64,000 nt of DNA from a virus (IMGVR_UViG_3300032431_000003:1-64000), one strand, 5' to 3'; counted from the stretch's first letter, positions 5,283 to 63,999 are shown. Numbers and translations are program-made. The notes: generated by a model from the sequence alone, not told the origin.

Positions 5283-6527
5283 ATGACAGCAAAACTAGAA
5301 GGATACGATTTCGATGATGGCGATTTCGCTACTTCCAATGACTTAGCTACGTGCCAATGGATCAATCCCCAGAAAGATCACTTCGGCTTGGCTATTTCTC
5401 CAGAGAACGCAACGAAGGCAATGTTCAAGCCCGACACTGCTGGCTGGGAATACAAGGAAATCAAGTTCCCGAAGAAGTCGGAGGGAATGTGGATGACGCG
5501 CAACCCCCGAATCCTCGTCCTCAACGGCTCCAGCGTTATCTCCGCCGAAAGGAAAGAGGAAGGCGATGCTTGTCCTCGTTATATGTGGGCTTTGAAACCC
5601 AAGTTTGACGATGATGGTCGTCCTATCTTCGATAGCAACAACAAACAAGAAGTCGAGACGTTAGGCGTTATCCCCTACGACGACTCTAAGTGGGCTGACA
5701 AGGAACACTATGCTTCCTTTAGTCGCTTTGTTTTCTTGGTTGTTGACGAGAATAATCAAGTGGTCTCGAATCCCATTGTGCTTCGTACTCAAAAAGCTTC
5801 GGAGCTAACGATTGTCAACTTGTTCCGCAAGGAATTTATTCCCGGTGTACTCAACGTGTACGAGAAAGCCGTAGGGAAAAAACTACCCAAGGAAACCCCT
5901 ACCTGTAAGTTCCTCGCTCGGTTTGTATTTCAACCTATCCTGACCGCAGGTAAGGCTGGCGCAGGAGCCGCCGCAACCCGTGCTGATTCCTTCGTGCCAT
6001 TGACTGCCGAGAGATTCGCTGAGTTTGCCTTGCAGTCAAAGACCCACGCTGACACCATAGCCACCGTTGCTTCTCACCTAGAGAATCTCTTGGATTACGT
6101 CAGCGAACCCTTGATGGCAATTCCCTCGGAGCCTGAGCCTGCCGAAGTTGAGGCGGTAGCTCCTAAAGCAGCACTCAAGGCAGCATTAGGAGAAGAGACT
6201 CCTTTGTCAGCCGATGATATCAGGTCGTTGATGGACGAAATTGGTCGAGCAGAGAAAGAGCTCCATCTCTCTCCTGTAGAGATAAGAACTCTTCTCCTTG
6301 AGACCTTTAAGAAGAGAGTGAAGCACCTCTTGACCACGGATGATCTGCTTGCCTATCTCGACCTACTCAAAACGATTCGACTAGAGATAGAGATGGGGGT
6401 CTCCCCTGAAGAGATGAGGGTTATTCTCCTTGAGACCTTTGCTAAGGCAGAGAAGAATCTCTTGACCACGGAAGAGCTAAGCGACTATCTCGAAATACTC
6501 AAAACAATGGAAATGGATGAAATCTAA
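5283..6527 (+). CDS. 414-residue protein, possibly DUF5895-like, first gene of the DNA-metabolism module
   Basis: ATG 5283 follows AGAGGTGAAAAC. Residues 1-280 form one conserved-looking domain of the kind I associate with cyanobacterial DUF5895 proteins (recalled, not searched). An Ala/Pro-rich linker (about 285-305) follows. The C-terminus holds two tandem copies of a helical repeat of about 44 residues, each with LLETF, LLTT(D/E) and (D/E)YL.(I/L)LKT. It is followed, with a 1-nt overlap, by a gene that overlaps ssb, so a role with single-stranded DNA in replication or recombination is a reasonable inference. Confidence 0.7.
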   Translation: MTAKLEGYDFDDGDFATSNDLATCQWINPQKDHFGLAISPENATKAMFKPDTAGWEYKEIKFPKKSEGMWMTRNPRILVLNGSSVISAERKEEGDACPRYMWALKPKFDDDGRPIFDSNNKQEVETLGVIPYDDSKWADKEHYASFSRFVFLVVDENNQVVSNPIVLRTQKASELTIVNLFRKEFIPGVLNVYEKAVGKKLPKETPTCKFLARFVFQPILTAGKAGAGAAATRADSFVPLTAERFAEFALQSKTHADTIATVASHLENLLDYVSEPLMAIPSEPEPAEVEAVAPKAALKAALGEETPLSADDIRSLMDEIGRAEKELHLSPVEIRTLLLETFKKRVKHLLTTDDLLAYLDLLKTIRLEIEMGVSPEEMRVILLETFAKAEKNLLTTEELSDYLEILKTMEMDEI

Positions 6528-45614: not shown

Positions 45615-46046
45615 TTAACCGCTTTGTTTTATGTTGAAACTAAAATCTGCTTGGTATATTAATTCGCCCAACTGAAACATCGGACGATACCGACTACTGA
45701 CTCTCCCCGTAAACTCGACACATCCTGCTTTCGCAATAGCCATCTCTCTCAAAGCGTTTGCTATATTCAGCGCAAGGAAATTATTTATCCCCGGTAGCTC
45801 ATCCATCGACACATTGGCTAAGGCATGGGTGAGCTTGATGTCTGACTGCCGAGCAGCCGTCTGAAGATCAAGGTAGTCAGACTCACGAAAACCTTTAAGT
45901 AATGGGTAGTCGGAAATAGGGATATTGAAAGCGTCATAGTAAGCCACTCGCCGAACAACCGTGACCCCATCGCCAGCCTTGTTTAAGAAAGTAGCCACCG
46001 TGTCTGTAATTTCCTTAATTAATGGGTCGTGGAATAAGCTGGTCAT
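45615..46046 (-). CDS. Putative tail-completion or connector protein (143 aa)
   Basis: Acidic helical start (DPLIKEITDTVATFL) then a beta-rich C-terminus (FTGRVSSRYRPMFQLGELIYQADFSF). Position upstream of the tube gene fits a tail terminator (gpU-like). Similarity is by pattern only. Confidence 0.45.
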   Translation of the reverse strand: MTSLFHDPLIKEITDTVATFLNKAGDGVTVVRRVAYYDAFNIPISDYPLLKGFRESDYLDLQTAARQSDIKLTHALANVSMDELPGINNFLALNIANALREMAIAKAGCVEFTGRVSSRYRPMFQLGELIYQADFSFNIKQSG

Positions 46047-46459
46047 TTGTTGAGTGATCCCAATGTTCGTTTGGTAGTGTTGATTAGTGGTGGTGCTGAT
46101 ACCTTGGGTTGAGCCATCTTTGCAGCCATTTTAGGGTTCCACTCAACAATCTTTACCTTGCGCCCTATAGTTCGTGCTGGCGGAGGACTCCTGACTCCCT
46201 TGAGGGAAGACAAGACTTGTTTCTTACCCTGTGTCAGTGCAGGAAGTACTTTTGTTTTGGCCTTTCTGTACGCTCCAACTATCTCTGACTTATTTTTGGT
46301 ATTCATCCAGCCAACCTCACGGGTATTCACAGCTTTCCCGGAGGTCGAAGGCACTCCCATCGCTTTGTTATATTTGGCTCTAGCCTTATTTGCCTTGGCT
46401 ACCTTCTTTTTGAGTCGATAGTTTTTGGCTACTTTTGTTAATTTTGCTGTGATCGCCAT
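46043..46459 (-). CDS. Highly basic protein (138 aa)
   Basis: Lys/Arg make up roughly a quarter of the residues, in blocks such as RLKKKVAKANKARAKYNKA. It has no acidic or leader segment at the N-terminus. The composition is histone-like; nucleic-acid binding inside the virion is a guess. Confidence 0.5.
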   Translation of the reverse strand: MAITAKLTKVAKNYRLKKKVAKANKARAKYNKAMGVPSTSGKAVNTREVGWMNTKNKSEIVGAYRKAKTKVLPALTQGKKQVLSSLKGVRSPPPARTIGRKVKIVEWNPKMAAKMAQPKVSAPPLINTTKRTLGSLNK

Positions 46460-47027: not shown

Positions 47028-47540
47028 TTATCTAGGTCGTCTAGGTGGTCTTCGAGGAGTCGTGCTGCCTCTACGAACTCGTTGACCTCTGGGTTTTGCC
47101 TTGGGTAGAGACTGAAGCCTCTTCTCGGCTGCATTCCGCTTGAGTCGGTTTGCCTCAAGCTGGGTTCTGTACTTGGGAACCTCTACTGCATCTTTTGCAC
47201 TTCTGATCTTCTTGCCTGCTCTAGCGGCTAAACCCCAACGACCAGAATCTTCCTTGTTAATATGATGGATGACTGCTTTATTCAAAGGTTTAGCAAGTCG
47301 CTTATTAGTAGCCTGAACCCTTTGGTAGTAGGATTTTGGCTTTCTAGCAGGAGTGCTCTTTGCCGAAGAAAGTAACTCTGGTGCAGAAACCTGAGAGTCA
47401 AAAGTGCTACTTCCAGGAGTCCTTCTTCGGGAAGCCAAGTATCCTCCCCCTCCAAGGACTCCCGCCAAAGCTGCGGCTCTAACAATTCGCCCCTTCCTTG
47501 TTTTTCCTAGCAACTTTCGCCGCAAGTTACCCTTTGCCAT
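47028..47540 (-). CDS. Basic protein with Gly-rich hydrophobic segment (170 aa)
   Basis: Arrangement: basic N-terminus (KGNLRRKLLGKTRKGR), one hydrophobic Gly-rich helix (AAALAGVLGGGGYLAS), then a long Lys/Arg/Pro-rich tail ending RRPPRRPR. The same basic-hydrophobic-basic layout is seen in the leader family at 54195-57829, but here there is no leader. Possible virion DNA-binding or membrane-inserting protein. Confidence 0.5.
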   Translation of the reverse strand: MAKGNLRRKLLGKTRKGRIVRAAALAGVLGGGGYLASRRRTPGSSTFDSQVSAPELLSSAKSTPARKPKSYYQRVQATNKRLAKPLNKAVIHHINKEDSGRWGLAARAGKKIRSAKDAVEVPKYRTQLEANRLKRNAAEKRLQSLPKAKPRGQRVRRGSTTPRRPPRRPR

Positions 47541-49955: not shown

Positions 49956-50462
49956 CTATTTAGATGATCTAGCTTTTCTAAGTTGAAGTGCTTGAGCCGT
50001 TAGTTCGAGCCCTCTCTCCCTAAGTCCCAGTCCTCGATCTCTGATGTCCAGTCCCCTGTTGGCAGAGGCAATCCGACCGAGTACGCCCATCCTTCCCGTC
50101 CTACTTTTGCTTATTCGTGATCCAATTCGAGAGGTTATATCCCCTCTCCTGAGTCCAGAATCGAGGAACCCTCCGACTAGACTTAGCCGACTTGATGACG
50201 GCACAGGTCTAGAGGCAATCTCACGAGCCATTCTGTATTTCTTGACCAGTTGAAAGTCCTTAGCTCCCCTAGCTACGTTGTAGTAAGCCTTGGTCAAATT
50301 GTTAGCCGAATTAGCCAGGTGAGTGGTTCTCAATACCGCCTTGTCAAGGGCTTCGCCAGCATTGAAGGGCACTGCGTTCCGCTTCCTCAAGGAGTTGCTA
50401 ATCTTCCGCTTGTGAGCAGCCGATAGCTTCTTCCTGAATTCTGCGATGTAAGGAGTGTTCAT
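49956..50462 (-). CDS. Basic protein with leader-like start (168 aa)
   Basis: Starts MNTPYIAEF, reminiscent of the T4 capsid targeting sequence end (FIAE) and of the Ala-Glu-Phe junction of the 54195-57829 family. The next 25 residues (RKKLSAAHKRKISNSLRKR) look like a NUMOD3 DNA-binding motif. A C-terminal RDRGLGLRERGLEL repeat follows. Strongly basic overall. Confidence 0.5.
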   Translation of the reverse strand: MNTPYIAEFRKKLSAAHKRKISNSLRKRNAVPFNAGEALDKAVLRTTHLANSANNLTKAYYNVARGAKDFQLVKKYRMAREIASRPVPSSSRLSLVGGFLDSGLRRGDITSRIGSRISKSRTGRMGVLGRIASANRGLDIRDRGLGLRERGLELTAQALQLRKARSSK

Positions 50463-50821
50463 CTTTGCCTTGCTTTTTTATACCTTTGGAGCAGTCGAGT
50501 TCCCTTGTTAGCAATGACTCTGGCTTGAGCTTCTGTTCTAGGAACAGGCTCTCCCCAAGCCTTTGCCGTCAGAGCTAGACGTGTAGGGCGACCCTTTTTA
50601 TCTACGAGAGGAGGTAGAACCTTTCTCCCATAGAATCGCCTAGCCCAAGAACCCTTTCTTCTCAGATCGGAGACCGTCATCTTCTTACCATGTCGCATAA
50701 CCCCAGGGCGGAGTTTGCTGCCAGTCTTCTGTGCATAGTATTTTCGACCTGCGGGAGTTAGACCTCCATTCGGGCTGTGATACTTTGCGGCAAAATTAGC
50801 TAGCGACAGGTGCTGAGGCAT
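50459..50821 (-). CDS. Basic protein (120 aa)
   Basis: Starts MPQHLSLANFAAKYH, with an ANF like one leader of the right-hand family. It continues GGLTPAGRKYYAQKTGSKLRPGV, a pattern I recall from small basic phage proteins of unknown function. Overlaps the upstream small gene by 26 nt. Confidence 0.5.
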   Translation of the reverse strand: MPQHLSLANFAAKYHSPNGGLTPAGRKYYAQKTGSKLRPGVMRHGKKMTVSDLRRKGSWARRFYGRKVLPPLVDKKGRPTRLALTAKAWGEPVPRTEAQARVIANKGTRLLQRYKKARQR

Positions 50822-51074: not shown

Positions 51075-52220
51075 CTAAGCAGCCCTCCGTGCAAATAACA
51101 ATTTAGGATTAGGGATTACTGGCAACATTGTCGCAACGCCTTGAGTGGCATCACGAGGAGGGAACTTAGTAACTTCTCTAGTGACCACAAAGGGACCAGG
51201 GGCTCCTTCGTTTTCTAGGGTTGGACCCATAGCTTGTTCGCCCATGCCTTGAGTCAAGAAGACGTAACGATCTGGGTTGAAGAAGCGCATTTTCCCACCA
51301 CCATTAGGCAGGTTGTACATTTCATCACAGATAATAATTGGGGGTAAGCCCATGTCTTCAAAGAGACGATCAAGCATGAGGTTGGAAACCACTCCCACAT
51401 TGGAGACAACGACAGACGCTGCGGAGTTGGAGATCGAAGAGAATGAACGCTTCGTGGACTCTTGATTTCGCAAGTGAAGCCGCAACTTGTGGGACATGAG
51501 AATTGCCGTAGGCATGTAGCCGTTAGTGTCTCGGAAGACCTCTACGTCATTCTCTAAGTTTTGCAATCCATCGGCAGTGACGTATTGATTCCACGCTTGA
51601 GGAGTCGCAGTCAGATCGGGTGGAAAGTGAGCAAATTTGCCATTAGGGGCATAGCCATAGGTGGCATCGGCATCACGGTAGTCCAAGGGCAATCGAACAC
51701 TGGTTCGAGTATCTTCGTAATTGACGAAGCCAAACTGGACTGCTTGAGCCGCAATTAGATAATTAAGGTCAGTCAAGGCTCGTGCCATGTCAGCAATAGT
51801 GCCAAACAAGTAATCAGCCAAGGTGGAGTTAGCACCGGGGATGACTGCTCCATTGGGCAATACTTGTGACTGAACAGTTAGCCCTTTAGCCGAAGCCTTC
51901 TCAAGGGCTTCACGCATTTGCCATTGACGTTCTTCGGGGTAGTCAAAGGAAAGCCCAGCCTTGAATAGATCACCAGTAATCTTGTTGAATTTACCAACTT
52001 GAGTGGTTGGTAGTTCCGCACCATAGGCAACTAAGGAAGCCACTGGGCTTACCTTGTCCACCACGTAGGCGAGGAAGTCCCGCGTATCATACATTCGTGG
52101 AGGTAAGAAAGCATCAAGAGCCCGTTTTCGCTGATTAAGATAGTGGAGAGTGTCGTCCACCATAATGTTCGCTTCGGCAGCTTGTTGCTGTTCACTTAAC
52201 CAGCTTGCAATTTGTCCCAT
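51075..52220 (-). CDS. Major capsid protein, lambda gpE/HK97-fold type (381 aa)
   Basis: N-terminal arm about 60 residues, then VAYGAELPTTQVGKFN and a spine-helix-rich centre; an A-domain-like region (GYMPTAILMSHKLRLHLRN, ICDEMYNLPNGGG, VFLTQGMGE) and a C-terminal TREVTKFPPRD typical of the E-family. Size and location after scaffold and decoration genes agree. It builds the icosahedral head. Confidence 0.75.
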   Translation of the reverse strand: MGQIASWLSEQQQAAEANIMVDDTLHYLNQRKRALDAFLPPRMYDTRDFLAYVVDKVSPVASLVAYGAELPTTQVGKFNKITGDLFKAGLSFDYPEERQWQMREALEKASAKGLTVQSQVLPNGAVIPGANSTLADYLFGTIADMARALTDLNYLIAAQAVQFGFVNYEDTRTSVRLPLDYRDADATYGYAPNGKFAHFPPDLTATPQAWNQYVTADGLQNLENDVEVFRDTNGYMPTAILMSHKLRLHLRNQESTKRSFSSISNSAASVVVSNVGVVSNLMLDRLFEDMGLPPIIICDEMYNLPNGGGKMRFFNPDRYVFLTQGMGEQAMGPTLENEGAPGPFVVTREVTKFPPRDATQGVATMLPVIPNPKLLFARRAA

Positions 52221-53091: not shown

Positions 53092-54159
53092 CTACCTTCC
53101 AATGTTTTGTAGTCTCAATTCGGCATTGCGCCGAGCTTGAGCTTGAATAGCATTTTCTTCAGCTTCCTCGTTGGGATTCAAGGGTTCATCGTAAGCGAAG
53201 GAATTGAAACTAATCATTCCCCCACATTTTTGAAACATTTCAAGGGTCTTCTGCATGGCATATAGCTCAGTGTCTAAACTGGAGCCATTTGATTGACATA
53301 CAGAAGAAAATGCAGCCAACTGATCGTCTTGGCTCTCGAAGTTACCTAGGAGCTCACGGTGAACCACTGGAGGTAGCCATCCCTGATTGAACCCAGCATC
53401 GGCTAAACGATTTAGTTCGTTCAAGCGACTAGAGACCTCTTGCTGAACTTGAGCTTCAGTAAACTGAGCTTCTAATTCTTGCAAGCGGAAGTCCTTGTCT
53501 TGAATGGCTCTGGCGTAGCTTTCAAGGACTTCCTCGGTTTCGCCCTCGTCACCTTCGTCCTCTTCGTAATCGCCTTCTTCCATCGCATCATCCTCAGCCA
53601 AGACAAGCATCCCATTGAGGACTTCTTCGTCATTAGCCGAATCAAAGGCTTGAGCCAGTTCTAGTACGAGGTCTTGGTCTGGGATGTATTGCCCAACAAG
53701 GATTCCGGCAATAGATTCTGCATCGTAACCAGTGACTTCACAAAGAGCCGCAATGCCTTCTTCAAGGTCGCCGTAGTCTTCATTGATCAACTCCATCAGA
53801 GCTTGTCCAATCCCACTCTCAGAAGAACCACGAAAGAAGTTAGCAGTGTTTCCACCACGGGAATAATCCTCTTCGTCATCCTCTTCGTCGTCTTCGTCAT
53901 CTTCATCGCCTTCTTCGAGTTCTACGATTTGTTCGTATTCGTCGTAAGCTTGGGCACGAAGTTCTTGGGCTTCTTCGTAAGTCAGAAGTCCCTCTTCTTC
54001 GCCGTCATCAATGCTGTTGATGGTCGCTTCGTAAACTTCGTCGATGTTTTCAATGGCAGTGGCAAGAATCTCTTCTTCGGAGAGTTCTTCCTCTTGGTTG
54101 TCATCGTACTCATCGGCATATTGGTTTGCGTAGCGAGTTGGTCTTTCTTTTGTGTACAT
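53092..54159 (-). CDS. Very acidic scaffold-like protein (355 aa)
   Basis: Residues 20-110 and 195-215 are runs of Asp and Glu (EEGDEDDEDDEEDDEED). A coiled-coil stretch (QDKDFRLQELEAQFTEAQVQQEV) lies near 225. Scaffold proteins are acidic and helical and sit next to the capsid gene, as here. It may instead be an internal head protein, or a charge partner for the basic proteins just to its right. Confidence 0.5.
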   Translation of the reverse strand: MYTKERPTRYANQYADEYDDNQEEELSEEEILATAIENIDEVYEATINSIDDGEEEGLLTYEEAQELRAQAYDEYEQIVELEEGDEDDEDDEEDDEEDYSRGGNTANFFRGSSESGIGQALMELINEDYGDLEEGIAALCEVTGYDAESIAGILVGQYIPDQDLVLELAQAFDSANDEEVLNGMLVLAEDDAMEEGDYEEDEGDEGETEEVLESYARAIQDKDFRLQELEAQFTEAQVQQEVSSRLNELNRLADAGFNQGWLPPVVHRELLGNFESQDDQLAAFSSVCQSNGSSLDTELYAMQKTLEMFQKCGGMISFNSFAYDEPLNPNEEAEENAIQAQARRNAELRLQNIGR

Positions 54160-54194: not shown

Positions 54195-54578
54195 TTATCT
54201 GTATTTCCGCTTCTTAGACCTCCGAATCTTTCTACCAAGAGCCTTGGCTCCTCGGTAGGCTCCATAGCCAAGAGCAACGGTTCCCGCAGCTTTCAAGGCA
54301 TTACTCGTACCACTCAAAACGCCCCCACCAACGGCTCCAGCAGCACCGCCTGCAACAGGGTTAAACCCCATCCCTTTTGCTGCGGCAGCACTCGCTGTTC
54401 CACCGATTATTCCACCCCTAAGCAGTCCCAGTCCTCCACCAGCGAGAGCCCCGTACTTGACTGCCTTACCTAGTCGGATACCTTTTCGGCTTTTCTTGCC
54501 ACCCAAGGGAGAGGCAAATTCAGCCCGAAGAGGCTCGTCGTAATACATTGAGAAAGCTGCGTCCAGCATTGTGTACAT
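54195..54578 (-). CDS. Leader-family basic protein A (127 aa)
   Basis: Leader MYTMLDAAFSMYYDEPLRAEF, then a Lys/Arg-rich part and a long Gly/Ala-rich hydrophobic section with glycine-zipper spacing (GGGLGLLRGGIIGGTASA and on), ending GRKIRRSKKRKYR. By analogy with T4 internal proteins I infer cleavage after AE, and packaging in the prohead. Confidence 0.6.
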   Translation of the reverse strand: MYTMLDAAFSMYYDEPLRAEFASPLGGKKSRKGIRLGKAVKYGALAGGGLGLLRGGIIGGTASAAAAKGMGFNPVAGGAAGAVGGGVLSGTSNALKAAGTVALGYGAYRGAKALGRKIRRSKKRKYR

Positions 54579-54590
54579 TGTTTACTCCTA

Positions 54591-54968
54591 TTAACCTTTA
54601 GTGCCTCTACGTCGTTTCAAGCCAATCTTTCGACGAGCTCGATGTCCAGTAGCTTTGATAGAGCGAACAGCCCTGTAGGCTCCGTAGCCAGCAAGTCCTC
54701 CTGCTAGACCAGTTGCGGCTCCCTTTAGACTCTCCGAAGCTATTGGTCTGACCATTCCCTTCGCTACATCCGTTGGGCTCCGTCCAGCCTTTCTGCTGAT
54801 GTATTGACGAGAAGCTTCACCGAGCCCAAGTCCAACGGCTCCCCCAAGGACACTATTGCGAATACCCTGCTTTAGAGCCCTTTTATTTTTCTTTGACATA
54901 CCAAACTCAGCTTGGAGAGGCTCGTCGTAATACATTGAGAAAGCTGCGTCTAACATCGAATATTCCAT
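54591..54968 (-). CDS. Leader-family basic protein B (125 aa)
   Basis: I choose ATG 54968, as MEYSMLDAAFSMYYDEPLQAEF, ignoring a longer frame to 55046. The leader is almost that of protein A. The mature part is basic with a Gly/Ala-rich hydrophobic centre and an RARRKIGLKRRRG end. Confidence 0.6.
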   Translation of the reverse strand: MEYSMLDAAFSMYYDEPLQAEFGMSKKNKRALKQGIRNSVLGGAVGLGLGEASRQYISRKAGRSPTDVAKGMVRPIASESLKGAATGLAGGLAGYGAYRAVRSIKATGHRARRKIGLKRRRGTKG

Positions 54969-54972
54969 GTCT

Positions 54973-55374
54973 TTATATCTTGGGGAATTTGAGTGCATTC
55001 TGGGCGGCAGTAACGTTGGCAGAGGCTCCAGCCTTGGCTCCAGCAAAGACTGGCTTGACTAGTCTAGTTCCCCTAGCCCCAGAAGCATAGGCTGTCTTGC
55101 CAGCACCGTAGCCACCCTTGCCTGCCCCGTGAAGCCCAGCCCCAATGACTGATGCCTTTATTGGGTTCTTGGCAACAAAGGCTCCGACTTTTTTGAGTTG
55201 CGTATTGGCAGCCCCAGCTAGCCGACCAGCCCCTCGCCTAGCCAAGAGAGCGGCGCGTTTCGCCTTCCTCCCTGCCCGACGAAGAAATCCTCGCTTACCA
55301 GGGGGAGCAGCGCCTTCGTTGAAATTGGCGGAAGCGTAGAGTTCGTGGGCTGAGTCGATTAGTGTGTATGCCAT
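54973..55374 (-). CDS. Leader-family basic protein C (133 aa)
   Basis: Start ATG 55374 (longer frame to 55473 rejected by leader alignment). Leader MAYTLIDSAHELYASANF, the only member with Asn in place of Glu. Mature part is basic (RRAGRKAKRAALLARRGAGR) with Ala/Gly-rich helices. Confidence 0.6.
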   Translation of the reverse strand: MAYTLIDSAHELYASANFNEGAAPPGKRGFLRRAGRKAKRAALLARRGAGRLAGAANTQLKKVGAFVAKNPIKASVIGAGLHGAGKGGYGAGKTAYASGARGTRLVKPVFAGAKAGASANVTAAQNALKFPKI

Positions 55375-55387
55375 GTTGATCCTTGAT

Positions 55388-55747
55388 TTATCGGGGCATT
55401 CTTTGACTATTTCTGAAGTTCTTGGCAGATTGAACGGCTTGAGCCCTATTGGTGGACTTTGGACTGTTGGCAACTCGCTTAGCTACAGAACCCGCATAAA
55501 GTCCACCAGCCCCAAGAGCTAAAGCCCCGCCAGCCCCAAGAGCCACCTTACCCTTGTTTCGCATGGCAACTCCGCCAGCCCTTCGAGCTAAAGACCCTGC
55601 GCCTCTACCTGCTCGTCCAGCCATCTGTCCAGCCCGTCCTGCAAAAACTTTAGCTTTTCGCCCTGCCTTACGAAGCATTCCTGCCTTAGAGAATTCTGCT
55701 TCGGGGTAGTACATTTCGTAAGCGGCATCTAATAATGTGTAAGCCAT
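55388..55747 (-). CDS. Leader-family basic protein D (119 aa)
   Basis: Leader MAYTLLDAAYEMYYPEAEF, then SKAGMLRKAGRKAKVFAGR, an Ala/Gly hydrophobic helix (GKVALGAGGALALGAGGLYAG) and a short basic tail. Leader DNA is nearly identical to that of F and G although the mature part differs. Confidence 0.65.
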   Translation of the reverse strand: MAYTLLDAAYEMYYPEAEFSKAGMLRKAGRKAKVFAGRAGQMAGRAGRGAGSLARRAGGVAMRNKGKVALGAGGALALGAGGLYAGSVAKRVANSPKSTNRAQAVQSAKNFRNSQRMPR

Positions 55748-55768
55748 CTGCGGTTTCCTCTGTTTCGT

Positions 55769-56044
55769 TTATTTTTTGCGGAAGGGGTTCATTCGTCGAA
55801 GCCCACCGCCAATGTCCTTTTTAATCCGTTGACCAACTCCGTAGGCAAAGGCTTCATCGGGAGCACGGGGTTGTCGTTTTCGAGGCTTTGTTTCTCGGTG
55901 CATCGCTCTTTCCCCAGCGTTGAGGTATCGATACTTTGCTGCCTTGAGCCTCGTCTTAACTTTCTTGAATGTCCGCTTACCCATTGCAAACTCAGCTTTC
56001 TGGGGGCGAAATTCAAGTGCAGATTCTAGTAGTGTGTATGCCAC
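55769..56044 (-). CDS. Leader-family basic protein E (91 aa)
   Basis: Leader MAYTLLESALEFRPQKAEF then a strongly basic tail (KRTFKKVKTRLKAAKYRY). No Gly-rich hydrophobic section, so this one is a pure basic cargo. Confidence 0.65.
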   Translation of the reverse strand: MAYTLLESALEFRPQKAEFAMGKRTFKKVKTRLKAAKYRYLNAGERAMHRETKPRKRQPRAPDEAFAYGVGQRIKKDIGGGLRRMNPFRKK

Positions 56045-56059
56045 TTGTTTCCTCCCTGA

Positions 56060-56377
56060 CTATCTTCTTCGTGGAAGAGCTCTTCGTGCAACCTTGTCAG
56101 TGCTCATCTCTCTCATCAGCCCTCTCATTTCGGGGGTTTGGCGAAGCATTGCTCCTCCACCCTTATTCCACCGCTTAGCCGCCGCTTCCGTTCTGCCTGT
56201 CTTGTACCCTAGCCTGAAGTTTTTCTTATATTTCTTAGCCTTCATTCCACCTAGCCGGGCGTAACTCTTGGCTTTCCGACCAACTCCGCTAAGCGCAGCC
56301 CTACCTCTGTCTAGCAATCCGAATTCTGCTTCGGGGTAATACATTTCGTAAGCTGCATCTAATAATGTGTAAGCCAT
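56060..56377 (-). CDS. Leader-family basic protein F (105 aa)
   Basis: Leader MAYTLLDAAYEMYYPEAEF, then GLLDRGRAALSGVGRKAKSY. Highly similar over its length to protein G, an evident recent tandem duplication. Mature part basic, ends RRALPRRR. Confidence 0.65.
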   Translation of the reverse strand: MAYTLLDAAYEMYYPEAEFGLLDRGRAALSGVGRKAKSYARLGGMKAKKYKKNFRLGYKTGRTEAAAKRWNKGGGAMLRQTPEMRGLMREMSTDKVARRALPRRR

Positions 56378-56426
56378 CTGTGGTCTCCTTAGTCGTGTTT
56401 ATTTTTGCGGGTTAGTTTCTCTCTGG

Positions 56427-56744
56427 CTATCTTCTTCGTGGAAGGGCTTTTCGCCCAACCTTGTCGCTGCTCATCCCTCTCACAGCCGCCCTAACGTCGG
56501 GGTCTATCCGAAGTATTGGTCCCCCAGTCCGATTCCACCGCTTAGCCGCCGCTTGCGTTGCACCTGTCTTATACCCTTTCTTAAAGTCTTTCTTAGCTTT
56601 CCTAGCCTTCATCCCGGCTAGACGGGCGTAACTCTTGGCTTTTCGACCAACTCCGCTAAGCGCAGCCCTACCTCTGTCTAGCAATCCGAATTCCGCTTCG
56701 GGGTAATACATTTCGTAAGCTGCATCTAATAATGTGTAAGCCAT
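56427..56744 (-). CDS. Leader-family basic protein G (105 aa)
   Basis: Same leader and mature start as F; several substitutions in the middle and C-terminus (RIDPDVRAAVRGMSSDKVG versus RQTPEMRGLMREMSTDKVA). Ends RKALPRRR. Confidence 0.65.
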   Translation of the reverse strand: MAYTLLDAAYEMYYPEAEFGLLDRGRAALSGVGRKAKSYARLAGMKARKAKKDFKKGYKTGATQAAAKRWNRTGGPILRIDPDVRAAVRGMSSDKVGRKALPRRR

Positions 56745-56770
56745 TCGTGGTCTCCTTTGTTTTGTACTTA

Positions 56771-57829
56771 TTAACGTTTGCCAGGTCGAAATGTCGAAAG
56801 AGAAGACGAACCCAGGGTTCTTGCCGTTACATCGACAGTTTTCTTGCCAGCGGGAACGCTAGATTCCTTCTTCCTCAGTGCATCTCGATACCTTGCACCT
56901 TGAATTAAATTGTGTCCTGTCTTGTACAGTCCCAACGCAAGTACCGTAGAGCGGATGGGGTTTTGAGCCATAGTCTTGAGTTCTCGCCCTATCACCCGAC
57001 CAGCGGCTCCGGCTCCCCTTCTCAGTCCTCGACCAGCTCTTCTTCCCCCAATCTTCGCTTTCCTCAAGACTCTAGATTCCGATCTCTTGAAGTCAATTAC
57101 TGAAGATCGGGATCGAAGTCTTCGTTGATTAAATCGAACGACTCCTCCTCTACTAGCTCGAAAACCAAGCCATCTTTTCCGAGTGGCTATATCTCTAGCA
57201 GCCTTCTCTTTAGCCCAGTTCTTGCCCTTCTCGATTGCACTACCTGCCACCTGGGAAGCCTTACTAGTCAACTCTCTTCTTTTTGCTATGTCCTCTTCGG
57301 CAATTCCCTTGAGTGCTTGCTTGACATTCTTTAGAACAGGCTTCGCTTTTCTTCTCACCAGTCGAACACCAGCTTCAACTCTCTTGCTTTTCTTTTGAGT
57401 CCAAATCCCGACATTCTTCTTGACTCCTTTGACGGTCTGAACAGCCTGCCCTGTTAGCTCTTTTCTCTTCGCAATGTCCTTGGTAGCTCTGTTGTTGCCC
57501 CAGTCTTTTGCCTTTTGGATTTGCTGATTGGTTTGCTTCTGGACTTGTTGATTGGCTCCCACAGGGATACCCTTGCCGAATTCCTCTCCAGCAGTATTAA
57601 ACCCCTGCTTTACCCTTTTCCCCGATTCATTCTTGATGGCGGAAATAGTTGCCCCAATTTTCTTGCGGTTCAAGTAAAGCCCAGCGGCTCCAGCGGCAGC
57701 AAGGCGAGTCCCCATCCCTTTCTTTGTCCTGCCTATAGCAAGCCTGCCTATCCGCTTTAGTCCAGCCCTAACTTTGCCGGACTTAAATTCAATTCTGTCG
57801 GGGGTAATGTCACCCATTACTACTAGCAT
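56771..57829 (-). CDS. Large leader-family-like basic protein H (352 aa)
   Basis: Start MLVVMGDITPDRIEF, a shorter leader with an Ile-Glu-Phe end. Residues 15-350 are mostly Lys/Arg/Ala/Gly with a hydrophobic GTRLAAAGAAGLYLNRK stretch near 45 and repeated ATxDIAKRKELTGQAVQ-like segments (three or four copies of KxxARDIAxRK). Virion DNA-binding or ejected protein is inferred. Confidence 0.55.
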   Translation of the reverse strand: MLVVMGDITPDRIEFKSGKVRAGLKRIGRLAIGRTKKGMGTRLAAAGAAGLYLNRKKIGATISAIKNESGKRVKQGFNTAGEEFGKGIPVGANQQVQKQTNQQIQKAKDWGNNRATKDIAKRKELTGQAVQTVKGVKKNVGIWTQKKSKRVEAGVRLVRRKAKPVLKNVKQALKGIAEEDIAKRRELTSKASQVAGSAIEKGKNWAKEKAARDIATRKRWLGFRASRGGVVRFNQRRLRSRSSVIDFKRSESRVLRKAKIGGRRAGRGLRRGAGAAGRVIGRELKTMAQNPIRSTVLALGLYKTGHNLIQGARYRDALRKKESSVPAGKKTVDVTARTLGSSSLSTFRPGKR

Positions 57830-58762
57830 TTATCTAGCCCTCCGTCCCGAAGCCCTCTTCAGTATTTTGGCAAAATTAGCCAATTTACCTGCATTGGCGG
57901 ACATCTTTGCTTGAGACAAGTCTTGCTGCCTTGTGACGTAGCTAGGGTCTTGCATCCCACTCATTCCTGGGTAGCCATCGGGGGCATCTTCGCCACCATC
58001 TAATCCCAAGAGTTCAGCGAGACGATCCGAGAGACCACCAATGGCATCTTCGACAAGCATCGCTGGGTCTTCGCCCATCAAGGTTGATTCGTCTGCCTGA
58101 GAAATACAGGTAACAATCTCCCAGAATTTCTCAGTGATTTCTTCGTACTGTTCCTTGAGTTCGTCGATTTGGGTTTGCTCCTCTTCTGCATCATCCCAAG
58201 TCAGCGAAAAACGAGCATCACTGTTGTGCTGCCTGAAAATACTCAGTCCAACAATGGCTGGCTGAGGAGTTGCCGAGATTTCCTTGATAGTATTCGTAGC
58301 TACATCGATACCGGGAGAAAGAGTCTTGATTCTTCCCGACATTACCTGAGCTACAATATCTTCGCCCTTGGCTACTAACTGCCCAAAAGCTCCCAACTTA
58401 CCGACCAGCTTTCTTAGTCGGGGATTAGGAAGGTCATTTTCAGTAATGATGCGGATTTCCAACTCGCCTTCTAAGTCACCAATGTTGGCACTCTGAGTCT
58501 TGTCGTGGTCTTTTTGCCAAGGGATTCTGCCGCCAGCCCGAAGGAAGGCATTGGTTTTCTCAACTAAATCACGAAGTCTTTCTTGGGAGAAGGTGTGGGG
58601 TCGCTTCTGGGAGTCGTGGTGATTGCCTTCAATCATCAGCAAGGCTTCCTTGATTAGAACACCGTCTTCTTGGTCTTCTTCGGCAAAGCTGGCGGGAGTA
58701 AGCCCCAGTCCAAATGGGGAAAGAAATTCTAGTCGTTTTGACCGAGGTTTTGGTTTGGGCAT
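57830..58762 (-). CDS. Prohead protease (310 aa)
   Basis: Catalytic pattern of caudovirus prohead proteases: IPWQKDHDKTQ (His near 85), VAQVMSGRIKTLSPGID (Ser near 150), then a TIKEISATPQPAIVGLSIF end of the fold (E-S-x-x-PA). A C-terminal 100 residues is acidic then Lys-rich, perhaps a scaffold-like or self-targeting part. The start contains SKRLEF and, later, ASFAEED, which may be self-cleavage sites. Beside the leader family that would be its substrates. Confidence 0.7.
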   Translation of the reverse strand: MPKPKPRSKRLEFLSPFGLGLTPASFAEEDQEDGVLIKEALLMIEGNHHDSQKRPHTFSQERLRDLVEKTNAFLRAGGRIPWQKDHDKTQSANIGDLEGELEIRIITENDLPNPRLRKLVGKLGAFGQLVAKGEDIVAQVMSGRIKTLSPGIDVATNTIKEISATPQPAIVGLSIFRQHNSDARFSLTWDDAEEEQTQIDELKEQYEEITEKFWEIVTCISQADESTLMGEDPAMLVEDAIGGLSDRLAELLGLDGGEDAPDGYPGMSGMQDPSYVTRQQDLSQAKMSANAGKLANFAKILKRASGRRAR

Positions 58763-58874
58763 TTTGGACAGAATAGAAGGTGCTCATTCCAGACTAATGG
58801 AGCTTAACTACCTTTTTCTTTAAGCCAAAATCCCTAGCATTACATTTTCGTTGTTAACTCTAGCTTTGTAATAA

Positions 58875-59105
58875 CTACTTCATCCGAGGTTTGGAAAGGT
58901 GCTTGAGAGTGCCTAGCCGAGGAATAACTCGACGATAGGAATTGGGTATCTTGGGCAAAGTATTCTTCGCTCTCGTCGCTGCCTTGCCTAGTTTCCTGAG
59001 ACGACCTCGAATATGCCCTGTCTTTTGGAGCTTTGTCATCCCCGTTGGCATCTGAAGCTCTGCGTATTTCGTTGCAAACTCAATGAGACTATTGTAGTGA
59101 TTCAT
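58875..59105 (-). CDS. Leader-family-like basic protein J (76 aa)
   Basis: Starts MNHYNSLIEFATKYAEL, with two possible junctions (IEF or YAEL), then a basic Lys/Arg/Thr-rich part (TRAKNTLPKIPNSYRRV). Directly upstream of the protease gene. A 112-nt non-coding gap separates them. Confidence 0.5.
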   Translation of the reverse strand: MNHYNSLIEFATKYAELQMPTGMTKLQKTGHIRGRLRKLGKAATRAKNTLPKIPNSYRRVIPRLGTLKHLSKPRMK

Positions 59106-59164: not shown

Positions 59165-59632
59165 ATGACACAGAAAACTGCAACTCGACGAGGTAAATTT
59201 GGACGACCCAACGGGATTAGTCATAACAGCTTTCTTGCCCTACTTCGACTTGAATCGAGGATTAGTCAGAAAGAAGTTGCCATAGCAACCCACGTCTCGC
59301 AGCCCCTGGTTAGCAATATCGAGAAAGGGAAAACCCCAGCAGACATATTATACTTATACAGACTAGCTGAACTTTATGCCGTTCCATCCTTCGGTGAATT
59401 TTGTGAGAAGTACCTCCAAGACCTCATTAGCCACCTTTCGCCGCAGTCTATCAAGGCAGCATCGGCGAAATATCAGTCAATCTCTCCGGCGCAGGGGAAT
59501 CATGAGCAGCAAAAACCCAGCCCGACCCCATCTGAGACCGAGGGCAGTCAGATTGACGAACGGCTCAATTCTGATAATCAAGCCCAGACCCCTTTAATAA
59601 AGAATGAAGACCTTCACCCCGCTATTTTCTAA
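59165..59632 (+). CDS. XRE-type HTH regulator (155 aa)
   Basis: Residues 20-75 (ALLRLESRISQKEVAIATHVSQPLVSNIEKGKTP, RLAELYAV) form an XRE/lambda-repressor HTH. C-terminal 70 residues are Pro/Ser/Glu-rich and unfolded-looking. Begins the antisense signalling cassette and overlaps the kinase start by 29 nt. Diverges from the late operon gene at 59105. Confidence 0.75.
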   Translation: MTQKTATRRGKFGRPNGISHNSFLALLRLESRISQKEVAIATHVSQPLVSNIEKGKTPADILYLYRLAELYAVPSFGEFCEKYLQDLISHLSPQSIKAASAKYQSISPAQGNHEQQKPSPTPSETEGSQIDERLNSDNQAQTPLIKNEDLHPAIF

Positions 59633-60590
59633 GCTACCAATTCCTTGCGCCCTGATTAACGAAGACAACGTAGTCACTATGGCTTCCGAAGCAGCTATAG
59701 AAATAGGATATTGTATTGGCAAAAAGATTGAGTCAGACTGGCTCGACAACTTTAACAACTTAAAAGAGACTAAAGGGAGGCTAGAGGTCTTTTGCAGCCA
59801 AAACTGGTGGCTCGTTCAATTAGAAAGAGTCGAAAAGGGGGTGGTGCTTATTGCCACGAACATCTCAAAGGAGAAGTCGTTAATCGAGGTACTAGAGTCG
59901 AGGAATCAAAAGCAGACCGATCTGGGTCGTCAAATATTCCATCACGATGCCATTACATTCCTTAACGGTATTGACTTTTGGGTAGAAGAGGCATCTGACT
60001 CATCCCCCGACAATAATGCAATAAAAAGAATAGGCAGCATATCCCTAGAGCTTCGGAATTTGATGGAAGGAAGTTCATATCTTTATGGGGCAGGAAAAAC
60101 TCCTCTGAGAGCATTGGTTCTCAAGGAGTTGGTTGAGCATGTACTGGAAATACTGGAACCTCGCATCAAGGAGAAGGAAGCAATTGTAACAGTGGAAGGT
60201 AATGGAACTATTGTTTGGGGTGATACGAATCGACTAGGGCGAGTACTGATGAATCTGATCTCTAATGCACTTAATTATCAACCTCTCAGGAAATCTCATA
60301 TCCCAGTCGTAAAAATATCAATAAAGCCAGAGTCAGAGCAGGGGCTTGTTACCTTAGAGGTGGAGGACAACGGAATTGGTGTGTCAGCAGAGTATCAAGA
60401 GCGGATATTCTCTCCGCTATCAAGGCTGCACGGGAGTCAGGATTACCCAGGTTCAGGGCTGGGGCTGGCTATTGTGGAACGGATTATATTGGAACACAAT
60501 GGAAGTGTAGGAGTATCCAGTGAAGGAGACGGATCAACATTTTGGATTAAAATACCAGGGCATCAGGCACGTTCTGCTAGTAGAGGATGA
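59604..60590 (+). CDS. Histidine kinase (PAS-like sensor, HisKA and HATPase_c; 328 aa)
   Basis: Residues 5-95 form a PAS-like sensor without membrane segments, so it is cytosolic. H-box: IFHHDAITFLNGIDFW with His113/114 as phospho-acceptor. N-box near 215 (NRLGRVLMNLISNALNY), G1 near 265 (VEDNGIGVSAEYQERIF), F and G2 (GSGLGLAIVERII). All ATP-site motifs are intact, so it is likely active. Confidence 0.8.
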   Translation: MKTFTPLFSKLPIPCALINEDNVVTMASEAAIEIGYCIGKKIESDWLDNFNNLKETKGRLEVFCSQNWWLVQLERVEKGVVLIATNISKEKSLIEVLESRNQKQTDLGRQIFHHDAITFLNGIDFWVEEASDSSPDNNAIKRIGSISLELRNLMEGSSYLYGAGKTPLRALVLKELVEHVLEILEPRIKEKEAIVTVEGNGTIVWGDTNRLGRVLMNLISNALNYQPLRKSHIPVVKISIKPESEQGLVTLEVEDNGIGVSAEYQERIFSPLSRLHGSQDYPGSGLGLAIVERIILEHNGSVGVSSEGDGSTFWIKIPGHQARSASRG

Positions 60591-60987
60591 CTTGAGTGCA
60601 ACTGAGATGGTTCGAGTTATTTTTGCAAGAATGCAGAATAGTTCAACGATCAACACCGTTCAACACTATGCACTCTGGGAAATAAACAATGGGAAAAGTG
60701 CCGTGCAGACTCTCAGGGAGATGCCTTTCGATCTAATACTTCTAGACATCTCGCTACCCATTATGTCTGGGTTTGAGGTCTTAACTCTTGTTAGGGCAAT
60801 GCACATTTATACTCCAATATTTATGTTTTCCTCGTCAAGCAATACCTTGGATGTTCACAAGGCATACGATCTGGGAGCCAATGGATTCATATTAAAATCC
60901 GAAGGAAGAAGGCAAATAGAACTTCGCATAAGGGCTGTTTGTGACTGTTATTTTAATTACTTACTACTGCCATGCCCTCTATATTGA
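60520..60987 (+). CDS. Stand-alone receiver protein (response regulator, 155 aa)
   Basis: GTG 60520, with AGGAG six bases before, starts 71 nt inside the kinase gene. Acidic pocket E22/D23/D24, phospho-acceptor D76 in LILLDISLP, Lys126 in ANGFILKSEG. No output domain follows. Confidence 0.75.
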   Translation: MKETDQHFGLKYQGIRHVLLVEDDLSATEMVRVIFARMQNSSTINTVQHYALWEINNGKSAVQTLREMPFDLILLDISLPIMSGFEVLTLVRAMHIYTPIFMFSSSSNTLDVHKAYDLGANGFILKSEGRRQIELRIRAVCDCYFNYLLLPCPLY

Positions 60988-62072
60988 TTATCGATGACAC
61001 CCCCGAAAACTGTGAAGCTCTAGCGATGAATCTCGATGCCCTGGGTATGTCCAGTGAATCAAGGATAGTCGCTTACTCAATAGACAAAGGGCTGGAAGCC
61101 ATTCAAGAGTTCCCCAGTATTCGGACTATTTTGCTTGATCTTCGATTGCCGGGGATAAAGATGGGCGAAGTAGTCGGCAAGGTGCAGGAAGTGTTGGAAT
61201 TGTGTGGAAATACTAAGGCAGTCATCATTCCCATCTCAGTAGGATCAACGAACCCTTCCGTTGTCAATACCACGGAAATCGCTAATTCTATAACAGGCCC
61301 AAAAGCGTTGTCGAAAGTGCTGCAAATAGCCGACAACCATGTAGAGCAGAACATATCAAGGGAAGATAGGGAGGACATTCGAGGTGGGGCAACAAGGCTA
61401 GAGGGAAAGGTTGAGAAGATAGAAGCAATGCTCTTGGCTTTCAAGGAAGAAAACAGGGAGTTAAAACTTGAATTAAAGGAAGTCAAGTCCGTCTTGCTTG
61501 CGCTCAAGATGGTAGTAGATGATCCCCTACTTCTATGGAAGCTAATCCTTCGACACCCCGCAATTCAAGTAGCCGTAATAGCAATTGTTATCAGCAATAT
61601 GGATTCAATGTTCGAGGCGTGGCAGAAAGCCAAGAAACTTTGGGACTCAGGGGCAGAAAACACTAGCCATCTGTCTCGCAATGTTGTCGCCCAGTCCTTC
61701 AAAGAGCCTACCGTCGTCGAGTCCAATGACCAAAAACCCAACCTCGCAATTTACCGCAGCAACTCCACTTTCTTGCAGGGCTCCATCAACAATGGTGATT
61801 GGCGCAATCCGACTTCCCCGCTCTCCAGTTGTAATCTTGGCTGGATCGACAAGGATAAAGCGAGTGTCGGACAGAAATATCCGAACCTCGCCACTACCCT
61901 GAGCACACGATGCCATGTATTCATTGGGTACTTGGGAGCCAACAAGAGAAAGCAGCCTACCTCGATAACCTACGAGTCTTGCTTCCGAGCTTGGGGCGAC
62001 CCTCCGCATCTGATCTACGATACCGACGGCTCCTGTCCAGTTTTGGGAGCAAACGGCGACCTGAAGGCGTGA
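60972..62072 (+). CDS. Receiver domain with coiled coil and membrane segment
   Basis: Receiver residues: Asp8/Asp9 (LIIDDTPEN), D56 (TILLDLRLPG), Lys111. Then a coiled coil (KVEKIEAMLLAFKEENRELKLELKE), and a membrane segment (PAIQVAVIAIVISNM). After about residue 225 the reading frame is antisense to the 61647-62123 gene and looks like a shadow: its composition is unlike the first part. The authentic protein may end earlier, so the long C-terminus is doubtful. Overlaps the receiver gene by 16 nt. Confidence 0.6.
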   Translation: MPSILIIDDTPENCEALAMNLDALGMSSESRIVAYSIDKGLEAIQEFPSIRTILLDLRLPGIKMGEVVGKVQEVLELCGNTKAVIIPISVGSTNPSVVNTTEIANSITGPKALSKVLQIADNHVEQNISREDREDIRGGATRLEGKVEKIEAMLLAFKEENRELKLELKEVKSVLLALKMVVDDPLLLWKLILRHPAIQVAVIAIVISNMDSMFEAWQKAKKLWDSGAENTSHLSRNVVAQSFKEPTVVESNDQKPNLAIYRSNSTFLQGSINNGDWRNPTSPLSSCNLGWIDKDKASVGQKYPNLATTLSTRCHVFIGYLGANKRKQPTSITYESCFRAWGDPPHLIYDTDGSCPVLGANGDLKA

Positions 62073-62123
62073 ATTTAGATTCGACGTGTTGATCGATGCG
62101 AGTAAAACTAGCTCTGGAATCAT
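61647..62123 (-). CDS. Hypothetical late-type protein (up to 158 aa)
   Basis: Protein-like sequence, especially from residue 70 on (GEVRIFLSDTRFILVDPAK, APITIVDGALQESG, EVGFLVIGLDDGRLFE). Codons start mostly with G or A, as in genuine genes. The frame overlaps the 680-residue gene by 167 nt if started at 62123; ATG 61916 would avoid this. It runs antisense to the receiver/membrane gene for 426 nt. Function unknown; a beta-domain virion or head protein is possible. Confidence 0.5.
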   Translation of the reverse strand: MIPELVLLASINTSNLNSRLQVAVCSQNWTGAVGIVDQMRRVAPSSEARLVGYRGRLLSLVGSQVPNEYMASCAQGSGEVRIFLSDTRFILVDPAKITTGERGSRIAPITIVDGALQESGVAAVNCEVGFLVIGLDDGRLFEGLGDNIARQMASVFCP

Positions 62124-63999
62124 GGGGAATGGTGAATGTGGCTAAGGTTTTTCTGACCAAGAACTGAGAGAGTCGATCACTTTGGGAGAATCCGATCTGG
62201 AGTAACCCAAGCTCTATTGATTCTAACTCAGTCCGCCGCCGACCAAGGAGAACTCGGACACCAGAGTAGTTCTTCTCCGAAACGTTGAGTGGACTATCCA
62301 CTTCGTCAATGCCCAGTATCCCTCTTAGCTCCGCCAAGGGCTTGCCCAACCTCGCTTCCGCCGCAGGGATTCCTCCTCGAAAACGATCAGGGTTGTCAAC
62401 GTAGCGGGGATTCGACAAGGTGATTCTAGAGGGAAAGGATAGTCCAGCCGCAGTGTCTTCGGTTACGGACACGTCAACTTGGAAGCCCGTCTTTACTCGA
62501 ATGTCTTCAACCTTGCTCAAGACTTTACCCCAAGCCTTGCCTCGAAGTCCTTCAAGTCTATTAACTTCGGCTATGGCTTTGTTTCGAGCAAAGAACAGTT
62601 CCAGTCCACCGCTTCTTTGAGCCGCAACGACAACATCGATCTCTCCTTGAGTTAACCTCTGAATATATTCATGCTCCGCAGAAGTAAGTTGACCACCCGA
62701 TACGTGCTTATTGATAATTCCAAGGGCGGACTTTTGATTCACAGAAGTCAATAATCCCCTATGAGCCAAGGAGGTAACTGTGTTTCGGTCTTGGCTAACC
62801 AGGCTACTTGCCTTTGTAGCCGACCTTGCCTGAGCTATGTTTTCCTTGAGTTCCGCCGTAGTCTTCGCTACCCCGCCAATGCTGACGGGCTTGGCTATCT
62901 CTGCTTCAATCAACCGTTTAGCCTCTTGAAGCTCAGTAATAGTCTGGCTTGATTTAGCCAAGTAAGTAGCTTGCTTCTTCTTGATCTCATTGCGAATCTC
63001 TGGCGCAACTTCGGTGTAGTAGTTCAGATGAGCGTCCCTCAGTCCCGTGGTCTGAATTGTCCCATCAGGTCTCCTGACTCCTTCGAGCCCTTTCTCAATC
63101 TTGGCAGCGTAATCATCGAAAGCTTTTAGTCCTGCCTGCTGGTTAGCAATCTCTTGAGCAAGAGCGGTGTCTGCCTTCTCTAGTAGTGGAGCAAGGTTCC
63201 TAGTCTTGGTGTCGTAATCAATGACCCTTTCTAAAGTAGGGATTGCCCCGACCTTTGTGACAACTCCATTGACTACTACTTCTTTTTCCAGCTTGTTTCT
63301 GACGCTCTCGAAGATGCGCCTACGAAAGGCGGCGGCACTCTCCGCACCGATAGCAGACTTACCTGCCGAGCCAAGTCCAGCAATGATTTCTGGATCGTTG
63401 ATCGTATCAATGACTCTTTGCATGTTACGAAACACGTAGTCAGCCCCTTCTGGTCCAGAGACAAGACTGAGCAAAGAAAGATTGTCGTTAACGGTTTTCT
63501 GGGCTGAAGACAAACCCATCGTTGCGGTTCTCTCAATGCCGGACAATTCCTCCTGGAATAAAGTCGTCCCATCCGTTCGGGGACGAAACTTGTCAAGAAC
63601 TGTCTCAGCGTTGGAATTAACTCGAACCCCTTCACTCTTCGCTAGCTCCCGGAGATTCTCTAGCGGCGGACTGATCCTCTGAAGAGCAACGTTTCTTTGC
63701 TTGTCATCCCCAAAAGTCTGCTTGTACCTCTTGGACTGGAGGGCAGACAAGTCACCTTTTTTCTTTGGCAATTTCTGTAAATCTTTCAGCATTGCCTTTA
63801 GTTGATCTCTCGAATTAGCTAAACGAGCCAATGTATCTGGCTGATTTGCTCTAGCCAAGCGAGAAATAGCTGCCTCAGTGGCCGCTAATTGAGAGTTGAT
63901 ACTTTGAACTAATGGAACGTCATCTAGCGAGGGAATACCGAAATCATTATTGCCAGAAGCCCTGATCTGCGCCCTGACCTCGCCAAGCTGAGAGTTCAT
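61957..63999 (-). CDS. Large late protein at the window edge, possibly partial (680 aa)
   Basis: Helical, charged, with a series of coiled-coil like segments (QTITELQEAKRLIEAEIAK). The C-terminal 60 residues are strongly basic (RLLPKLDRSRRYRRSD to SKTRRLSR). It may start at the ATG at the very end of the window, or extend beyond. Could be a minor head or internal virion protein. No family recognised. Confidence 0.5.
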   Translation of the reverse strand: MNSQLGEVRAQIRASGNNDFGIPSLDDVPLVQSINSQLAATEAAISRLARANQPDTLARLANSRDQLKAMLKDLQKLPKKKGDLSALQSKRYKQTFGDDKQRNVALQRISPPLENLRELAKSEGVRVNSNAETVLDKFRPRTDGTTLFQEELSGIERTATMGLSSAQKTVNDNLSLLSLVSGPEGADYVFRNMQRVIDTINDPEIIAGLGSAGKSAIGAESAAAFRRRIFESVRNKLEKEVVVNGVVTKVGAIPTLERVIDYDTKTRNLAPLLEKADTALAQEIANQQAGLKAFDDYAAKIEKGLEGVRRPDGTIQTTGLRDAHLNYYTEVAPEIRNEIKKKQATYLAKSSQTITELQEAKRLIEAEIAKPVSIGGVAKTTAELKENIAQARSATKASSLVSQDRNTVTSLAHRGLLTSVNQKSALGIINKHVSGGQLTSAEHEYIQRLTQGEIDVVVAAQRSGGLELFFARNKAIAEVNRLEGLRGKAWGKVLSKVEDIRVKTGFQVDVSVTEDTAAGLSFPSRITLSNPRYVDNPDRFRGGIPAAEARLGKPLAELRGILGIDEVDSPLNVSEKNYSGVRVLLGRRRTELESIELGLLQIGFSQSDRLSQFLVRKTLATFTIPHDSRASFTRIDQHVESKFTPSGRRLLPKLDRSRRYRRSDAEGRPKLGSKTRRLSR

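Follow-up and report, generated by a model that had tools for sequence, protein, structure and literature searches.

Why does a virus encode an unbroken run of small basic proteins with a common N-terminal leader beside its head maturation protease? The question is raised by positions 54195-56744 of the analysed stretch (hereafter the window), which comprises bases 1-64000 of the 77,925-base IMG/VR virus record IMGVR_UViG_3300032431_000003. The original prediction had described seven consecutive leader-bearing genes, A to G, in this region. All seven are present in tandem on the minus strand, with the starts of C and B corrected. We consider it likely that the array encodes capsid cargo proteins, which would be freed from their leaders by the neighbouring Mu I-type protease at an A-[E/N]-F site and would stay with the DNA. 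The array genes are as follows:

56427-56744, minus strand: array gene G, 105 amino acids; leader MAYTLLDAAYEMYYPEAE followed by F; basic body, charge +21
56060-56377, minus strand: array gene F, 105 amino acids; 78% identity to G; same leader
55769-56044, minus strand: array gene E, 91 amino acids; GTG start; leader VAYTLLESALEFRPQKAE followed by F
55388-55747, minus strand: array gene D, 119 amino acids; leader matching that of G at 54 of 57 nucleotides; other body, with a Gly/Ala-rich hydrophobic stretch
54973-55374, minus strand: array gene C, 133 amino acids; start corrected to 55374; leader MAYTLIDSAHELYASAN followed by F
54591-54968, minus strand: array gene B, 125 amino acids; start corrected to 54968; leader MEYSMLDAAFSMYYDEPLQAE followed by F; GxxxGxxxG stretches
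54195-54578, minus strand: array gene A, 127 amino acids; leader MYTMLDAAFSMYYDEPLRAE followed by F; four overlapping GxxxGxxxG matches

All seven proteins (isoelectric point, pI, 10.7-11.5) begin with a related leader of 17-21 residues that ends in A-[E/N] and is followed by F, after which the sequences diverge. The leader sequences are MAYTLLDAAYEMYYPEAEF in G, F and D, VAYTLLESALEFRPQKAEF in E, MAYTLIDSAHELYASANF in C, MEYSMLDAAFSMYYDEPLQAEF in B and MYTMLDAAFSMYYDEPLRAEF in A. The leader end reads AEF in six of the seven proteins and ANF in one, preceded by E, Q, R, K or S. Charge separates the two parts: the acidic leaders carry -1 to -5 and the basic bodies +19 to +22. Pairwise similarity is mostly confined to the leader; the exceptions are G/F and A/B (39%), which are similar over their full length, and D/C and G/D, in which similarity continues to about residue 45-54. 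At the DNA level, the bodies of G and D soon diverge after the leader, and G and F are identical at 56 of 57 leader positions and at 215 of 261 in the remainder. Between G and F, codons 1-44 give a ratio of nonsynonymous to synonymous substitution rates (dN/dS) of 0.06, and codons 45-105 one of 0.79; positive selection in these bodies, suspected from a crude count, was dropped on the latter, proper value. Because the leader is best preserved at the DNA level and dN/dS differs between the two parts of G/F, the array looks like a product of duplication with a kept leader and loosely constrained bodies. The seven leaders are paralogous copies and do not represent seven independent observations.

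Of the array proteins, G, F and E are simply basic, and D, C, B and A have hydrophobic, Gly-zipper-like stretches of small residues. The former three, together with a 352-residue protein encoded at 56771, look like DNA-binding proteins, and A-D look like membrane-active or channel-type ejected proteins. The suggestion of DNA-binding or ejected proteins made in the original prediction therefore needs qualification, since these four hydrophobic bodies are not plainly DNA-binding. The AlphaFold model of array protein A (mean predicted local distance difference test score, pLDDT, 54) is too poor for fold comparison. Array proteins gave no significant match in PHROGs, Pfam, NCBIfam or tblastn searches, in which not every protein was run against every library; A and G had no tblastn relatives among phage records even at E 1, and a joint A and B query gave no confirmed relative. 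Two contigs matched by array protein G (L051 and L052) were rejected, as the match was a chance WNRTGGPI inside a DNA methyltransferase-like protein.

The major capsid protein and the protease share 30% (E 5e-40) and 36% (E 1e-26) identity, respectively, with their counterparts in phages Pam2 and PA-SR01 (tblastn), the portal shares 26% identity with that of Pam2 (E 5e-29), and the scaffold matches PA-SR01-group scaffolds (phmmer, E 7.6e-17). Because these four proteins match Pam2 and/or PA-SR01, the window virus is, on sequence evidence, a distant relative of the Pseudanabaena phage lineage PA-SR01/Pam2. Queries with the window capsid protein alone or the protease alone retrieved no relatives among viral contigs, which were found only by alignments joining these proteins with those of Pam2/PA-SR01. 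No confirmed match was obtained when genome contigs were scanned with the protease profile.

The gene at 57830, named in the original prediction as the protease that would cut the array proteins, is by profile matches a homologue of head maturation proteases (phrog_976 / Mu I family). Phrog_976 was matched by all 12 of the 12 aligned protease members (best E 2.5e-5; only 0.003 for the window member by itself), and the PA-SR01 paper reports an HHpred match of the orthologous protease to PF10123 at 4.5e-18. PF10123 was not matched in the present Pfam search, and the protease profile found nothing useful among PDB sequences. Residues H56, H86 and S149, candidates for a catalytic Ser-His arrangement of the kind found in a herpesvirus-protease-like fold, are invariant across the protease alignment. 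The protease tails carry KLANF in the window and KLAQF in PA-SR01-type phages, which align loosely and fall in different alignment columns.

The distribution of A-[N/E]-F was examined by ranking every tripeptide in head genes against the rest of each genome. ANF is the top-ranked tripeptide both in Pam2 (12 in 2,971 head positions versus 10 in 35,395 elsewhere, p=1.4e-8) and in PA-SR01 (11 in 4,269 versus 6 in 33,293, p=2.6e-7). A[NE]F is enriched in the head module 12.7-fold in Pam2 and 10.8-fold in PA-SR01, with 17 and 18 occurrences, respectively, where shuffles that preserve the composition of each protein give 1.5 and 2.0. In the window, p is 3.6e-6 when paralogues are counted; with the array collapsed to one copy, five occurrences remain against 0.8 expected in within-protein shuffles (p=9e-4).

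The motif extends to other genes of the head cluster. On the minus strand, the transcription order is the gene at 58875, the protease at 57830, the gene at 56771, array genes G-F-E-D-C-B-A, the scaffold at 53092, the gene at 52229, the major capsid protein at 51075, and the genes at 50796, 50459 (DUF6321) and 49956, and a purine-rich ribosome-binding sequence precedes most of the starts. The genes bearing on the motif are as follows:

58875-59105, minus strand: small basic protein, 76 amino acids; LIEF at residues 7-10
57830-58762, minus strand: predicted head maturation protease homologue (Mu I type); KLANF near the C-terminus
56771-57829, minus strand: very basic protein, 352 amino acids; charge about +65; RIEF at residues 12-15
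53092-54159, minus strand: acidic scaffold; charge about -80; TANF site, with LEAQF and LLGNF at orthologous site positions
51075-52220, minus strand: major capsid protein
50459-50821, minus strand: DUF6321 basic protein; LANF at residues 7-10
49956-50462, minus strand: basic protein, 168 amino acids; starts MNTPYIAE followed by F; the sole leader also fitting the T4 rule

Starts related to the array leaders had been proposed at 58875 and 56771 (IEF) and at 49956 (AEF). All three are present, and the gene at 50459 (ANF), missing from that list, was added; a second motif proposed in the 58875 gene, YAEL, falls outside the pattern. None of these four head genes is paralogous to the array. [AI][EN]F occurs within the first 22 residues of 4 of 9 head genes compared with 3 of 85 other open reading frames (ORFs) (Fisher p=0.0013).

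A survey of Pam2, PA-SR01 and 41 related IMG/VR loci, many of which overlap or are close relatives of one another, yielded 53 non-redundant A-[N/E]-F sites, a few of which lie in other ORFs of those loci. The sites recur in the protease, scaffold and MuF-like protein as well as in small basic proteins and in long inner proteins. Because the motif recurs across unrelated head proteins of the relatives, we infer that A-[N/E]-F is the site of the maturation protease. In relatives, the middle residue is N at most sites and not E, so that the sequences leave two candidate positions for the scissile bond, following E/N or following F. In diverged scaffolds, orthologous site positions are kept with N/Q exchange (LEANF/LEAQF, LIGNF/LLGNF). 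The expectation that the leader would be found beside proteases elsewhere is thus borne out for the site and not for the array leader sequence itself. An AEF at residue 142 of the window MuF-like protein was not counted as conserved, as it is misaligned with the AEF of PA-SR01-group MuF proteins.

Several points weigh against a protease-released cargo array. The bounds of the head module were set, and A[NE]F was picked, after these sequences had been inspected, and the enrichments in Pam2 and PA-SR01 are not two independent tests, since these phages are related. In the window alone, the tripeptide ranking is led by the composition-driven AGR and RKA. A[NE]F is present at a low rate in non-head proteins and does not occur in the window major capsid protein, and the array leader sequence was found in no other virus searched. 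The AlphaFold model of the protease (mean pLDDT 37) is too poor to confirm its fold, and the virion protein data of the PA-SR01 paper consist of sodium dodecyl sulfate-polyacrylamide gel electrophoresis only. In the Pam2 paper, structural proteins identified by mass spectrometry are presented just as a figure.

These points were weighed together with three other explanations. The leader could be a never-removed N-terminal segment, such as a scaffold- or capsid-binding helix, of a duplicated structural family of minor head or DNA-condensing proteins. Leaders that are paralogous DNA copies prove no signal by conservation alone, which suits this explanation; however, non-homologous head proteins of this virus and of its relatives are enriched in the motif, including at internal scaffold and protease positions, and [AI][EN]F also closes unrelated N-termini within the cluster. 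We therefore regard an uncut leader as unlikely. Removal of the leader is also compatible with a role as co-scaffold or core components, in which the array proteins would be basic partners of the acidic scaffold, cut and discarded at maturation and not delivered. The opposite charges (scaffold -80, cargo about +17 each), the position of the array genes between those of the protease and the scaffold, and the influence of T4 IPIII on head assembly all fit such a role. It is nevertheless quite improbable, as the leader holds the only predicted site of each array protein, an arrangement suggesting that the body survives, whereas scaffold-type proteins of the relatives carry three or four sites. 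Finally, cyanobacteria often carry precursor families of leader-core layout resembling those of ribosomally synthesized and post-translationally modified peptides (RiPPs). A common leader, variable bodies and an adjoining protease resemble this layout, and the closest relatives of the window virus infect cyanobacteria. RiPP-like natural-product or bacteriocin precursors with a dedicated protease are extremely improbable here and were rejected, since NCBIfam gave no relevant precursor model match, the protease belongs to a head maturation family, the genes lie in the head operon, and the motif is also present in the scaffold and the protease.

In the favoured capsid-cargo reading, each protein would be carried into the procapsid core by its leader, a short acidic segment that is probably helical. 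Once there, the basic bodies may be held by the acidic scaffold as well; the strongly acidic scaffold and strongly basic cargo count for this reading. At maturation, the neighbouring Mu I-type protease would cut the leader at A-[E/N]-F, and to judge from the shared sites it may also cut the scaffold and itself. Once freed, the basic bodies would remain associated with the packaged DNA, and on infection they would probably exit together with it. The array itself appears to have grown by tandem duplication, with the leader conserved and the bodies diverging. Cleavage, targeting, packaging and ejection of the array proteins, and hence their capsid delivery, are proposed by analogy with known systems.

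The T4 internal proteins are basic, carry a 10-residue capsid targeting sequence that is removed by gp21, and are injected (PMC9026906, PMC12373910), and at least 10 kinds of leader-tagged internal proteins have been reported in T-even relatives (PMC12373910). The principle of leader-tagged cargo is therefore already known. Like the array, IPI, IPII and IPIII of T4 form a variable multi-gene set of small basic proteins with a common N-terminal leader on diverged bodies and a head protease. The array differs in its longer leader, in belonging to another phage lineage with no PHROGs or Pfam match to T4-type families, in its seven uninterrupted genes and in its Gly-zipper-like bodies. The sites also differ. 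The likeness to the T4 site drawn in the original prediction was not upheld: the L/I-X-E rule fits only the 49956 protein (YIAEF), and N is commoner than E in relatives. The inner-body and ejection proteins of phiKZ and SPN3US (proteases gp175 and gp245) resemble the present case in having one protease with many head substrates, multi-site propeptides and DNA-associated ejected proteins, and differ in their S/A-X-E site cut after E, mostly long propeptides and occurrence in giant myoviruses. The array does not follow S/A-X-E, as E, Q, R, K or S precedes A and only C (SAN) has S, without E. The Dar proteins of P1 are, as proposed for the array, capsid-delivered and co-ejected, with an N-terminal targeting signal in DarB and cleavage of DarA by Pro; unlike the array proteins, they are mostly large anti-restriction proteins with no common leader array.

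The closest parallel in layout is found in the inner proteins of PA-SR01 and Pam2, annotated as hypothetical, which likewise lie between the protease and the scaffold, are basic and Gly-zipper-rich and carry A-[N/E]-F. They differ in that fewer but longer genes encode them, as polyproteins with internal sites; their leaders are much shorter, and their bodies have no detectable homology to the window array. A Gly-zipper hairpin module is repeated in four copies in PA-SR01 and two in Pam2, often inside polyproteins, and the modules start 1-33 residues after a site (A[NE]F plus [AG][SQ]F variants counted). One hairpin-module protein scored 23.8 bits against Pfam Gly-zipper_Omp, near and below the cut-off of 25. 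The hairpin-module profile did not match the array bodies: the best value, E 0.024, came from B with every filter switched off, and no others were of note. The likeness established is thus one of layout.

A short leader, MxHFANF, precedes several unrelated bodies in PA-SR01 and Pam2, including a Snf2-type helicase region in PA-SR01. The gene concerned (PA-SR01, MT234670, L002:11252-13048) encodes a Snf2/DEAD-type helicase on the opposite strand inside the head cluster. It has two RRxFLK stretches resembling twin-arginine translocation (Tat) signals, one above the TIGR01409 cut-off, followed by MEHFANF immediately ahead of the helicase region. In Pam2 (ON014754), two paralogous proteins starting MQHFANFGYVKQANKQLKRL and MEHFANFGYVKQANKQLKRL are encoded outside the head cluster near a tail fibre gene (L049:3526-4185 and 5869-6369) and are candidate capsid cargo.

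Novelty appears to reside in the phage lineage concerned, in A-[N/E]-F as the site, in the uninterrupted array of seven genes and in its contrast with the polyprotein cargo of PA-SR01/Pam2. Such an array or site was not found described in the PA-SR01 and Pam2 genome papers or in the open-access literature (keyword search, subscription papers excluded). If the capsid-cargo reading is correct, A-[N/E]-F would allow the capsid cargo of a little-known phage lineage to be read directly from genomes, leader-tagged, protease-matured cargo sets would extend beyond T4-like and giant phages, and many hypothetical genes of Pseudanabaena phages would become testable injected-protein candidates. More tentatively, and with rather less than even expectation, this cyanophage lineage might possess its own delivery code independent of T4, in which an A-[N/E]-F leader directs head loading, protease release and injection. 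The window virus would then use a tandem leader array and PA-SR01-type phages polyproteins with repeated membrane-active hairpins, and the cargo would include diversifying counter-defence or host-takeover proteins.

Further genes of the window were also noted. Podovirus records of Synechococcus, Prochlorococcus, Pelagibacter and Methylophilales contain relatives of the DUF6321 protein, and marine cyanopodoviruses and pelagiphages are thus among the carriers of related small proteins. In the downstream tail-side region, 47028-47540 and 46043-46459 encode very basic proteins (pI 12.0 and 11.5) without an A[NE]F leader. A MuF-type gene at 61957-63999 (continuing to record base 67368; L007:1957-7368) encodes an 1803-residue protein. 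Its N-terminal Phage_Mu_F domain is joined to a hydrophobic stretch rich in Gly and to a helix-hairpin-helix region, and its long C-terminal part is without assignment. Between the head cluster and this gene, the plus strand at 59165-62072 carries a helix-turn-helix gene, a histidine kinase (HATPase) and two response-regulator-like ORFs, which are unusual cargo for a phage.

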